DNA from: Sporobolomyces roseus
Lineage: Eukaryota > Basidiomycota > Microbotryomycetes > Sporidiobolales > Sporidiobolaceae
Length of the DNA stretch: 64,000 nucleotides
Direction: 5' to 3'
NCBI GenBank assembly: GCA_016617785.1
Contig: JADILM010000006.1
Span: 1,364,001-1,428,000, forward strand
Below the pieces are notes generated by a model that did not search any database, was not told where the DNA came from, and saw only the letters and a list, made by a program, of their open reading frames with translations. A program made the position numbers and the translations under genes. This document shows positions 27,269 to 49,269 of this stretch, in pieces. Each line of letters starts with the position of its first letter. The first letter of the stretch is position 1.

Positions 27269-29652
27269 ATGTCTGAGAACGCTGTGTACGTCTCATCTCT
27301 CTAATCCTCTCGTTTGATCTCTTGAAAGATCGGAAATCTCAACTCGGCGAGCGTCGGATATTTCGCTCCTCTCTCGCTCGACGTAAACCTCTGGAACCAA
27401 CAAGGACGCCTCTAGAACGACGTCAAGTAGTAGATGCATCTCATGGGCAAGGCGCGAGAGTCGAAACAAGCTGGCGAAAGGAGAAACTTTGTGTAGTGAC
27501 GCGATCGCTGACCTCCTTTCCTCCCCCCTTGATCTTCCTCGATGTCTACAGCGCTGATATCGGAGTGAGTCTTACTTGATCGTACTCTCATCTATGGGCT
27601 AAACTGACTCCGATCTCGTCTCCTCAATCAGCTCATCGGTCTTGCCGTTATGGTTCGTCGAATTCTCCAAATAGAATCTCTCTCCTTCGAAAAAGATTCA
27701 ATCCCTCATCGCCTTGATATGTAAACAGGGTCAAAACCTTATCCTCAACATGGCTGACAAGGGCTTCACTGTCTGCGCCTACAACCGTACCGTCAGCAAG
27801 GTCGACCACTTCCTTGACAACGAGGCCAAGGGTGAGCCTTCCTCTCTTCTACCCTGATTTGAAGCGTCGCTAACTGTCTCTCTCTCTCTCTCAGGCAAGT
27901 CCATCGTTGGAGCTCACTCCGTCGAAGAGCTTTGCGCCAAACTCAAGACTCCCCGAAAGATCGTCCTCCTCGTCAAGGCTGGTCAAGCTGTCGACGACTT
28001 CATCGGTCAACTTGAACCTCACCTCGAGAAGGGAGACATCATCATCGACGGAGGAAACTCTCACTTCCCCGACTCGGTTCGTCGCACCAAGGAGCTCGAG
28101 GACAAGGGTCTCCTCTTCGTTGGATCTGGTGTTTCCGGAGGTGAGGAGGGTGCCCGTTACGGTCCTTCCCTCATGCCCGGAGGTTCCGCTGCCGCCTGGC
28201 CTCACATCAAGGAGATCTTCCAAAAGACTGCCGCTCAAGTCGATGGAGAGCCTTGCTGCGACTGGGTTGGAGATTCGGGAGCTGGTCACTACGTCAAGAT
28301 GGTTCACAACGGTATTGAGGTGAGTTCTTTCTGCTGAGATTGCTGCGATATCGGAAACTCATCTCTTCCCCTTCGATACAGTACGGTGACATGCAACTCA
28401 TCACTGAGGCTTACGATATCCTCAAGCGTGGTTTCGGAATGTCTGAAGGTGAAATCGCTGATGGTGAGTTCTCTCGTCTTCTCTACAAACTCTTCGAAAC
28501 TGATGAGGAAAGTCGATATAGTTTTCGAGACCTGGAACAAGGGTGTCCTCGATTCATACTTGATCGAAATCACTACCGAAATCTTGAGGTACAACGACGA
28601 AGATGGTACTCCTCTCGTTACCAAGATCCTCGACGCTGCTTCTCAAAAGGGTACCGGAAAGTGGACCGCTGTCAACGCCCTCGACCTCGGAATGCCCGTT
28701 ACTCTCATCGGTGAAGCCGTCTTCGCTCGATGCCTTTCTGCTATCAAGGCCGAACGTGTTCGCGCTTCCAAGGTTATCGGTGGACCCCAAATCGAGGCCT
28801 TCACTGGTGACAAGAAGCAATTCATCGACGACCTCGAGCAAGCTCTTTACGCTTCCAAGATGTAAGTTTTTCGTTTCTTTTCGTTCTCCCTTTCTTGCAG
28901 TGACTGACTCTATGTCGTTTGTCTACCTCTAGCGTCTCGTACGCTCAAGGATTCATGCTCATGCGTGAGGCTGCCCGCGAGTACAAGTGGACCCTCAACT
29001 ACTCTGGTATCGCTCTCATGTGGCGAGGAGGATGCATCATCCGGTCAGTTTTCCTAGGAGACATCACCAACGCTTACAAGAAGAACCAAGAGCTCGAGAA
29101 CCTTCTCTTCGACGACTTCTTCAACAAGGCCGGTTAGTTCGAGATTTCGAGGTTTTCGCATTTTTGGACGTCTCGCTGACTTCCCCGATTTCTTTCGTCT
29201 CTTAGTTCACAAGGCTCAACCTGGATGGCGCCGAATCGTCGCCCAGGGTGCTCTCTGGGGTATCCCCACTCCTGCTTTCTCCACCGCCCTTTCCTTCTTC
29301 GACGGTTACCGAACCGAACGTCTCCCTGCCTCCCTTCTCCAAGCTCAACGTGATTACTTCGGTGCCCACACCTTCAAGGTTCTCCCTGAGTTCGCTAACG
29401 ACAAATGTAAGCATAATCTCTCGATTTGCTCGGAGAGAAGAAAAATCAAAAATTGTAACTCTGCTAACTCCTCCGCTTTCTTCTCTACTCTCCTACAGAC
29501 AAGGAGGGAGCTGACAACCACGTAAATTGGACCGGCCGGTTTGTCGAGACCATTCCCTGGCTGTTCAGAACGTCGAGAAACGAAGTACTGACTTGGTTTT
29601 CGAAAAATTTCGCAGAGGAGGAAATGTTTCCGCTTCGACCTACAACGCCTAG
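27269..29652 (+). CDS. GND1: 6-phosphogluconate dehydrogenase, decarboxylating
   Basis: Pentose-phosphate pathway enzyme making NADPH, CO2 and ribulose 5-phosphate in the cytosol. About 490 residues. MSENAV/ADIG/LIGLAVM/GQNLILNMADKGF shows three small exons before the NADP-binding fold. IDGGNSHFPDS and VGSGVSGGEEGARYGPSLMPGG carry the substrate signature, and HYVKMVHNGIE holds the catalytic Lys. The last intron is 29539-29615. The final exon codes only GGNVSASTYNA and stops at 29650-29652, after HVNWTGR, as in other 6PGDHs. Oddity: the last 12 nt of the penultimate exon, the last intron, the last exon and the 3' UTR all lie inside the left palindrome arm. Codon use is strongly biased (CTC, ATC, ACC, GAC), as expected for high expression. 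Confidence 0.97.
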
Positions 29653-30076
29653 ATTCTCGCTTCTTCTCTGTTCTGTGCACTATAGTACATACCTACCTAT
29701 CTTCCCCACCCTTGCAAAAAGTTACAATTGGTTTTTCCGTGTCATCATCGTCGTTGTTTCCCTCTTTCTTGACACGGGACAGTCAGTGGTCAGAGGCTTC
29801 TTTATCTCTCGATTGCGCCTCCATGGCTCGACAAGCTTCTGACCGTCTCGCCTTCTGCTGCTCAGGTCCGCGTCGATCCAGTTCGACAGCGAGTACTCAT
29901 TCGACATCTAAAGTTTCACTCGATCTCAAGTCTCGAAAAGCTTGAGCTAAGCCTGTTCGACTACCAAGTTGCTGCAAGTGATGACACGAGTCCAACAGCG
30001 CCACATGGATGATTGAGTGCTGCTGTTCGAGGGGCAGAAACGAGTCAGCTCGTGTGCCAAAAAAAGAAGAAGAAAC

Positions 30077-30163
30077 TCCGGCTTCTCGGGATCGAACCGA
30101 GGACATTCAGATGATTCCATAACCAATTACAGTCTGACGCTCTTCCAACTGAGCTAAAGCCGG
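30077..30163 (-). tRNA. tRNA-Tyr (GTA), intron-containing, left arm
   Basis: Cloverleaf on the minus strand: acceptor CCGGCTT pairs with AAGCCGG, discriminator A, D-arm GCTC...GAGC, anticodon stem TCAGA/TCTGA, T-arm CTCGG-TTCGATC-CCGAG. The loop CTGTAA places GTA at 34-36, followed by a 14-nt intron. A C1-G72 pair with A73 is typical for eukaryotic tRNA-Tyr. Confidence 0.92.
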
Positions 30164-30845
30164 GAGAACAACGTTGGGTCGCGCGAATTTACAATACACT
30201 AAGAATCTGTTGTTCCCGTCGAGCGAAAGGCGGCCCTCTGTCATCTCTTTACGCAATTGCGAGCCTTCAGTTTGTTGGTTCTGATGTACAGAGACGCCGC
30301 ACTAAGAAACCAATCGTCATGTTCCTAGCGTCCTGAACACTGCTTTTCCAGACGATACTGAATCGAAAAGCGAGAGTCGGACCTCATCAACCGCTTCTTT
30401 TGAAGACACAGGTGAGTGCAGCTCCTCTCAAGGTTGGCTACAAGGCCGCGTGTCGCCGTCTCTCGTCGTGCTGGACGCGACAAAGCTTTCGAAGATTTGC
30501 GAAAGAAATTGAACCAGGAGGAATTGAGTCGTCCTCGAACGCACTTGCAACATCGAGATTCGCGATTCATCACATCAAAGGGTTTGACGAGTAGAGCTAG
30601 AGGAGGAGAGACTGATGGTCGACGAAACTGCTCTGCAATACCATCTCACTTCGCAACGCTCGCGAGGGCTGGTTCGCTCGACTCCTTGCGTACAAGCCGG
30701 AACCAATTTCAGACATCATCAACTCGGGTCGACAAAGGACACTTTGATCGGAGAGGGTACAAGGGGAGGAAGGTAGAGAACGAAGCAAGTAAGAAAAAAG
30801 GGAAAGGGTCAGTTTTCGACTCACTGATCCAAAAAGAACATCGCT

Positions 30846-30927
30846 CGCTCAATGACAGGGTTGAACTGTCGACCTCCCGATACGCTGCATAACAGTCGGA
30901 CGCTCTAACCAACTGAGCTAATCGAGC
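30846..30927 (-). tRNA. tRNA-Asn (GTT), intron-containing, left arm copy 1
   Basis: Acceptor GCTCGAT pairs with ATTGAGC (one G-T), discriminator G; D-arm GCTC...GAGC; anticodon stem TCCGA/TCGGG; T-arm GACAG-TTCAACC-CTGTC. The loop CTGTTA...A gives anticodon GTT with an 8-nt intron after position 37. Identical in sequence to the copy at 33103-33184. Confidence 0.9.
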
Positions 30928-47946: not shown

Positions 47947-48628
47947 AGCGATGTTCTTTTTGGATCAGTGAGTCGAAAACTGACCCTTTCCCTTTTTTCT
48001 TACTTGCTTCGTTCTCTACCTTCCTCCCCTTGTACCCTCTCCGATCAAAGTGTCCTTTGTCGACCCGAGTTGATGATGTCTGAAATTGGTTCCGGCTTGT
48101 ACGCAAGGAGTCGAGCGAACCAGCCCTCGCGAGCGTTGCGAAGTGAGATGGTATTGCAGAGCAGTTTCGTCGACCATCAGTCTCTCCTCCTCTAGCTCTA
48201 CTCGTCAAACCCTTTGATGTGATGAATCGCGAATCTCGATGTTGCAAGTGCGTTCGAGGACGACTCAATTCCTCCTGGTTCAATTTCTTTCGCAAATCTT
48301 CGAAAGCTTTGTCGCGTCCAGCACGACGAGAGACGGCGACACGCGGCCTTGTAGCCAACCTTGAGAGGAGCTGCACTCACCTGTGTCTTCAAAAGAAGCG
48401 GTTGATGAGGTCCGACTCTCGCTTTTCGATTCAGTATCGTCTGGAAAAGCAGTGTTCAGGACGCTAGGAACATGACGATTGGTTTCTTAGTGCGGCGTCT
48501 CTGTACATCAGAACCAACAAACTGAAGGCTCGCAATTGCGTAAAGAGATGACAGAGGGCCGCCTTTCGCTCGACGGGAACAACAGATTCTTAGTGTATTG
48601 TAAATTCGCGCGACCCAACGTTGTTCTC

Positions 48629-48715
48629 CCGGCTTTAGCTCAGTTGGAAGAGCGTCAGACTGTAATTGGTTATGGAATCATCTGAATGTCCTCGGTTCGA
48701 TCCCGAGAAGCCGGA
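48629..48715 (+). tRNA. tRNA-Tyr (GTA), right arm
   Basis: Mirror of 30077-30163; identical sequence including the 14-nt intron. Confidence 0.92.
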
Positions 48716-49143
48716 GTTTCTTCTTCTTTTTTTGGCACACGAGCTGACTCGTTTCTGCCCCTCGAACAGCAGCACTCAATCATCCATGTGGCGCTGTTGG
48801 ACTCGTGTCATCACTTGCAGCAACTTGGTAGTCGAACAGGCTTAGCTCAAGCTTTTCGAGACTTGAGATCGAGTGAAACTTTAGATGTCGAATGAGTACT
48901 CGCTGTCGAACTGGATCGACGCGGACCTGAGCAGCAGAAGGCGAGACGGTCAGAAGCTTGTCGAGCCATGGACGCGCAATCGAGAGATAGAGAAGCCTCA
49001 GACCACTCACTGACTCTCCAGAGTCAAGAAAGAGGGAAACAACGACGATGATGACACGGAAAAACCAATTGTAACTTTTTGCAAGGGTGGGGAAGATAGG
49101 TAGGTATGTACTATAGTGCACAGAACAGAGAAGAAGCGAGAAT

Positions 49144-49269
49144 CTAGGCGTTGTAGGTCGAAGCGGAAACATTTCCTCCTCTGCGAAATTTTTCGAAAAC
49201 CAAGTCAGTACTTCGTTTCTCGACGTTCTGAACAGCCAGGGAATGGTCTCGACAAACCGGCCGGTCCAA
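49144..49269 (-). pseudogene. Orphan copy of the GND1 3' end
   Basis: Contains 12 nt of the penultimate GND1 exon (49258-49269), the complete last intron, and the last exon (49144-49180) coding GGNVSASTYNA and the stop. The rest of GND1 is absent; the sequence beyond 49269 is the PAP2 3' flank. It is a by-product of the inverted duplication and marks the breakpoint. Confidence 0.93.

Follow-up and report, generated by a model that had tools for sequence, protein, structure and literature searches.

Large gene-bearing palindromes that are kept alike by gene conversion are best known from sex chromosomes. For palindrome P6 of the human Y chromosome, conversion tracts have a mean length of 2,068 bp and a maximum of over 9 kb (PMC3723533). 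Fold-back between inverted repeats 1.5 kb apart has been described for single-stranded DNA of the yeast cdc13 mutant, where it tolerates up to 25% divergence (PMC10164571). Here we describe a large palindrome from the basidiomycete Sporobolomyces roseus (assembly GCA_016617785.1; 22.4 Mb in 15 contigs, referred to as C1 to C15), a member of the Sporidiobolales, an order in which most sequenced strains appear haploid, judging by k-mers (PMC12093110). The palindrome lies within a window of 64,000 bp (C6:1364001-1428000, on contig JADILM010000006.1; coordinates without a contig refer to the window) and carries a SET-domain gene and tRNA genes in each arm. The explanation that we favour, and hold to be probable, is an older fold-back inverted duplication, copied from left to right, whose arms have been maintained by recurrent arm-to-arm gene conversion.

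The arms were defined by BLAST of the window against itself, which returned a single long inverted pair, 29527-38541 against 49269-40231, with 98.96% identity over 9,041 columns (66 mismatches and 28 gap columns; a second alignment of the arms using MAFFT has 24 gap columns instead). A match of such a length cannot be due to chance. The parts of the palindrome are:

29527-38541, forward strand: left arm, 9,015 bp (self-BLAST)
38542-40230, unstranded: spacer, 1,689 bp, mostly one unit of a dispersed repeat
40231-49269, reverse strand: right arm, inverted copy of the left, 9,039 bp (self-BLAST)

The locus is composed of long inverted arms more than 95% identical around a unique spacer, and the palindrome that had been proposed in a first-pass annotation of this DNA is real in the assembly, with its outer coordinates 29527 and 49269 exact. 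The spacer, put at about 1.75 kb in that annotation, is 1,689 bp long; near-identity itself stops at about 38383/40391, and about 2.0 kb separates the near-identical parts. The pairing rule given at the same time (both coordinates summing to 78792) applies to about 29784-38383 but fails nearer both ends: a 4-bp indel raises the sum to 78796 in the outermost part, and one 18-bp and two 1-bp indels shift the register of the innermost.

The differences between the arms are not spread evenly. From 29784 to 38382, the arms read in direct register differ by 45 substitutions, and 37 of the 39 found in 29820-38282 fall into an island of 1,161 bp around the 5' end of the SET gene:

34557-35717, forward strand: divergent island in the left arm, 37 differences in 1,161 bp
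43075-44235, reverse strand: divergent island in the right arm
29774-29819, forward strand: small cluster of 6 substitutions and a 4-bp indel

The core of the island, 34668-35137, holds 32 of the 37 differences (32 in 470 bp). By comparison, there is 1 difference in the 4,737 bp of 29820-34556, 1 in the 2,565 bp of 35718-38282 and none in 29527-29773, which contains the end of the gene GND1, though the right copy is without the rest of that gene. These three segments together make up 7,549 bp with 2 differences; for them the arms may indeed be called near-perfect, as they had been described, but not for the island core or for the inner end, where from 38384 inward the arms differ by 17-18%. 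In 20,000 simulations with uniform placement of the differences, the densest 1,200 bp never held more than 17 of 39, against 37 of 39 observed. The arms combine homogenised tracts with divergent islands, the mosaic by which a conversion-maintained palindrome is recognised; the import of one patch is the rival reading. Because the differences are clustered, unlike those of a young duplication, the mosaic fits recurrent arm-to-arm conversion better than recency alone.

Five of the differences are coding, and three of these could be polarised by eye on a SET paralog on C9: the C9 base is shared by the right arm at 35605 and 35717 and by the left arm at 35591, which assigns two derived bases to the left arm and one to the right. 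Since derived bases are present on each arm, change seems to have occurred in both. The larger homogenised block (29820-34556) is unlikely to be explained by selection on protein, because it holds tRNA genes and, among those of its ORFs (open reading frames) checked against Pfam, no recognised protein; the smaller block (35718-38282) is mostly SET coding sequence. RIP-like change (repeat-induced point mutation) between the arms was considered and rejected, as transitions account for 20 of the 37 island differences with no strong bias.

The direction of the duplication can be read from its outer boundaries, at which the following features lie:

29499-29652, forward strand: 3' end of GND1 (exon 29499-29538, intron 29539-29615, last exon 29616-29652, stop codon 29650-29652)
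49144-49269, reverse strand: truncated copy of the GND1 3' end in the right arm, with zero differences from the left copy
49289-49517, reverse strand: last exon (start read by eye) of a PAP2-family phosphatase gene, stop codon 49291-49289

The left arm starts at 29527, inside the exon 29499-29538 of GND1, whose tail NWTGRGGNVSASTYNA also terminates GND1 of S. roseus. The right arm begins at the same GND1 base, with no GND1 sequence preceding it there, and the PAP2 stop codon stands 19 bp outside this arm, so that PAP2 is left whole; its C-terminus (MAMV) matches the end of the S. roseus ortholog. Protein identity to S. roseus JCM 5353 is 98% for GND1 and 88% for PAP2. In Rhodosporidiobolus ruineniae, the GND1 and PAP2 matches bear locus tags 003678 and 003683, which are 5 apart, and agree in the length of their contig; on these grounds, both flanks probably derive from one old neighbourhood. 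Because the right side carries a truncated GND1 joined behind an intact PAP2, its outer end is to be read as the copy of the left one: one outer end is native and the other is a new join that cuts a gene copy, here the GND1 3' end, as is characteristic of fold-back duplication. PAP2 now runs into the 3' end of GND1, and GND1-derived sequence should hence serve as the 3' end of PAP2.

A dispersed repeat characterised by a 67-69-bp motif, referred to below as the element, makes up most of the spacer and the inner ends of both arms:

38317-40097, forward strand: direct repeat unit, with related 69-bp sequences at 38317-38385 and 39987-40055
40231-40475, reverse strand: inverted piece of the repeat, with the 67-bp motif at 40409-40475

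An inner boundary within a repeat that is present in both orientations is what fold-back would need. The two inner ends, 38317-38541 and 40475-40231, are 80% alike over 245 columns and may be older than the arms. The best other copy of the element lies about 54 kb away (C6:1345762-1348092; 88% and 85% over two pieces). At 38384-38460, the inner ends are 82% alike, against a maximum of 64% in comparisons with eight other copies; over 38461-38541, the likeness of the right end is 83% to the left one and 38-73% to the same eight copies. Because they are closer to each other than to other copies, notably at 38384-38460, the inner ends seem, as judged from these comparisons, to be sisters that have since diverged. 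The duplication either began at inverted copies that already differed, or extended further in and diverged later.

From these observations, we propose the following course of events. Two copies of the dispersed repeat would have stood inverted 3' of a SET-domain gene, and single-stranded DNA would have folded back at these copies, with break-induced synthesis or a replication template switch then copying the left side in the reverse direction, from the SET gene across three tRNA genes to the 3' end of GND1, before the product was joined behind PAP2. That copying ran from left to right is read from the truncated GND1 at the right outer end. Later, mutation would have affected both arms, with conversion tracts homogenising most of the sequence, the last ones recently as the mosaic suggests, and leaving unconverted the island at the 5' end of the SET gene together with the innermost part. 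Any crossover between the arms would flip the spacer.

The first-pass annotation had left open whether the palindrome is very recent or kept alike by conversion. The mosaic, the difference-free copy of the terminal GND1 exon and a tract in a second inverted repeat on C7 (described below) favour conversion, and recency alone is disfavoured. A stronger competitor is a very recent inverted duplication with arms born identical, into which a divergent patch of 0.5-1.2 kb was later imported from the allele of another strain. We regard this combination as rather unlikely, albeit as the best of the alternatives. It would account for the near-absence of differences outside the islands (2 in 7,549 bp) and for the single main patch, but it requires a second, unrelated event, and the inner ends are sisters at 38384-38460. 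Neither is there a donor among the matches listed elsewhere in the assembly: for 34557-35316, the only matches elsewhere are short ones on C2, at about 35141-35253, and donation of the patch by a paralog of the genome itself was rejected, as none was found for the arm sequence (searches of the assembly with arm and element sequences scored candidates only, and their results hold among the matches listed). Several observations nevertheless weigh against recurrent conversion. Much of the pattern would also be expected from a young duplication that had received one divergent patch by import, and the palindrome is undated and known from this one assembly. The longest identical run (2,613 bp between differences) does not by itself exceed what the uniform simulations produced (mean 904, maximum 3,128). 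GC-biased conversion is not indicated either, as the left arm has a GC content of 0.503, hardly above that of the spacer (0.502) and of the flanks (0.497). At 38461-38541, three other copies of the element are 80-81% like the left end, near its 83% to the right end, and the inner divergence may go back to differences that the repeat copies had before the duplication. Finally, the cluster at 29774 may be a single hairpin-templated event. As an observation on its own, the changes at 29760-29830 make a 6-bp hairpin stem in the right-arm version and could stem from one template switch; this version folds no better than shuffled sequences, which counts against a hairpin origin.

Further inverted repeats are found where the element occurs elsewhere in the assembly. 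On C7, 478801-484074 and 503498-498165 form an inverted pair (89.7% identity, 5.4-kb arms, 14.1-kb spacer) with the element inside the inner arm ends and long open reading frames (ORFs) in the spacer. Its arms differ at 480 positions in 5,092 columns, yet at none in the 450 bp of 483463-483912, near the inner end; at a uniform rate, the expected number of such difference-free runs is 2e-17, and this tract in an independent repeat appears conversion-like. On C2, 527777-528961 and 532400-531216 are inverted (1,185 bp, 99.9%); a piece of the element forms their inner 88 bp, and the rest of this element copy lies in the spacer. On C1, the pair 1819791-1820599 and 1824087-1823276 (812 bp, 98.5%) encloses the element in a spacer of 2.7 kb. 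An inverted repeat is thus present at 4 of the 9 element places with at least 7.5 kb of context (the C7 pair counted once), a proportion that is biased upward because the C2 and C1 places were chosen on hints of inversion and C7 was found through the element. With the same minimum context, none is present at C3:604k, C5:111k, C4:1672k, C2:440k and C6:1346k; three further places have none nearby (queries of 2.5-3.5 kb, E 1e-40), and C1:2.76M and C1:3.14M show none in a 2-kb self-comparison. The element count leaves out at least 7 places (C3:251k, C3:1299k, C3:1415k, C4:933k, C5:483k, C5:1137k and C7:522k). Two non-element queries (3.1-3.2 kb, E 1e-40) gave no inverted copy within 10 kb among the matches listed and are poor controls, one lying about 5 kb from the C1 repeat and the other in a repeat-rich region.

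A tentative idea, to which we assign a low probability, is that the dispersed repeat of the spacer acts as a recurrent generator of inverted duplications, by providing, in its inverted or structure-prone copies, turning points for fold-back, the products being homogenised in patches later on. The repeats would then be of different ages, some of them with genes (9.0 kb on C6, 5.4 kb on C7, 1.2 kb on C2 and 0.8 kb on C1), and the unconverted island on C6 would let near-identical SET genes keep different upstream regions.

A mobile-looking relative of the element, 4.8 kb long, is found at C3:604457-609296 and C5:107049-111890 (99.8% alike), with a third at C4:1672374-1677185 (92.6% to the C3 copy). 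Inside it, a sequence of about 280-340 bp is directly repeated (75-78%), and the C3 copy is without an ORF of 200 aa. Beside the C5 copy, a perfect tandem duplication of 286 bp was observed (C5:111914-112485). Other observations on repeats concern a tandem array with a 1,091-bp unit of the element family at C2:439958-444653 (about 99.4% alike when shifted by one unit), a direct repeat of 309 bp (99.7%) that flanks an element copy at C1:4228717-4229025 and 4231139-4231447, and a repeat family with 73-81% identity that spans about 350 kb at C2:1740538-2096952 and is restricted to C2 among the matches listed.

An assembly artefact, in the form of a chimeric or missed-adapter palindromic read or of two joined haplotypes, is very improbable. 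Palindromes arising as read-level artefacts are expected to have identical arms and no unique spacer. Here, assembly error is unlikely because the differences are clustered, the spacer is unique, PAP2 is whole at the right junction, with the join 19 bp past its stop codon, and the R. ruineniae locus tags of the two flanking genes lie 5 apart; C6 moreover carries telomere repeats at both ends (CCCTAA at its start, TTAGGG at its end). Still less probable is a centromere of the Candida tropicalis type, in which inverted repeats surround a short core. The size fits that of C. sojae (core of about 2 kb, repeats of 3-12 kb; PMC7292649), the arms contain tRNA genes, and element-bearing inverted repeats occur once each on C1, C2, C6 and C7. 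However, the arm sequence is not on other chromosomes among the matches listed, except for the element, SET paralogs and short repeats; the arms hold an intact SET gene, where gene-free arms would be expected; the C7 spacer is 14 kb with long ORFs; and several element copies occur per chromosome, with none on C8-C13 among the matches listed. That the arms are long terminal inverted repeats of one large transposon is the least credible explanation, since, despite the mobile-looking repeat at the centre, the C6 arm is absent beyond the element from the C7, C2 and C1 inverted repeats among the matches listed, the arm includes the end of a host gene (GND1), and there is no target-site duplication at the outer ends, the flanks sharing only a short ACGT near the join.

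From outside to inside, each arm contains the GND1 3' end, tRNA-Thr(TGT), two identical tRNAs, a stretch without a Pfam match above the cut-off in the ORFs checked and the SET-domain gene:

30077-30163, reverse strand: tRNA-Thr(TGT), left arm
30846-30927, reverse strand: tRNA, left arm (Rfam RF00005)
33103-33184, reverse strand: tRNA, left arm (Rfam RF00005), same sequence as 30846-30927
35282-38037, forward strand: SET-domain gene, left copy, 7 exons placed by eye and with the paralog, 787 aa
40755-43510, reverse strand: SET-domain gene, right copy, with Q85R, F101S and V624I relative to the left
45608-45689, forward strand: tRNA, right arm (Rfam RF00005)
47865-47946, forward strand: tRNA, right arm (Rfam RF00005)
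48629-48715, forward strand: tRNA-Thr(TGT), right arm

A chosen set of arm ORFs was checked against Pfam; those given from 29820-34556 had no match above the cut-off, with one DUF6951 match (E 0.061) below it. Both SET copies are intact and face each other, the gene also having a TPR match below the cut-off, and C9 has two further paralogous SET places. A search with the SET protein, which scored the 7,996 candidates with the most words in common, listed 17 relatives, none labelled Sporobolomyces and the best with 53% over half of the query. Within the divergent island, upstream of the SET gene, a possible small spliced ORF of 79 aa was seen at 34830-35128; it has no Pfam match. A mating-type locus was considered and rejected, since no mating-type domain was found in the 20 of 76 window ORFs given to Pfam and those neighbours to which Pfam gave a name are genes of a different kind. 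Elsewhere in the assembly, the start of C14 (71.9 kb) looks mitochondrial and that of C15 (64.5 kb) seems small-subunit-rRNA-like, both as judged from the letters.

The palindrome lies on a fungal chromosome that looks ordinary and is resolved to both ends; the direction of copying is readable from a cut gene, and the remaining island of divergence is a possible clock. If relatives share the palindrome, then the conversion rate, the tract length and the cause of the escape of the SET upstream region would become measurable in a yeast, whilst four inverted repeats tied to one repeat family would allow fold-back duplication to be tested directly in natural genomes. A literature search, with few queries naming the genus and subscription journals thinly covered, found no paper title on a Sporobolomyces palindrome.

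Conversion-kept palindromes are a known kind, of which the C6 case would be a further member. It resembles the human Y palindromes in having long arms around a spacer that are homogenised by kilobase conversion tracts (PMC3723533), but those are more than 99.9% alike and lie on a haploid sex chromosome, as far as described in that report, whereas here a fungal chromosome shows strongly patchy identity, no elevation of GC and an origin that is readable from the truncated GND1. As in the inverted repeats of Caenorhabditis elegans (PMC1803023), gene duplicates face each other, intergenic sequence is kept alike within the species and homogenisation is uneven; in the two main examples of that work, unlike here, intergenic arms of 124 and 160 bp enclose spacers of 414 and 126 bp, and the argument there used three species, whilst the present palindrome is known from one assembly. 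The homogenised inverted-repeat centromeres of the Candida tropicalis group (PMC7292649) share the sizes of core and arms and the inverted layout, but the arms described here are not found on other chromosomes among the matches listed and are not gene-free. With the fold-back duplications of yeast (PMC10164571, PMC3974649), the C6 palindrome has in common a turning point at an inverted repeat or hairpin and an end at an unrelated join; whilst those were laboratory events with loss of a chromosome end or dicentrics, in the parts of the two reports used here, the palindrome of S. roseus is internal and is present in an assembly.

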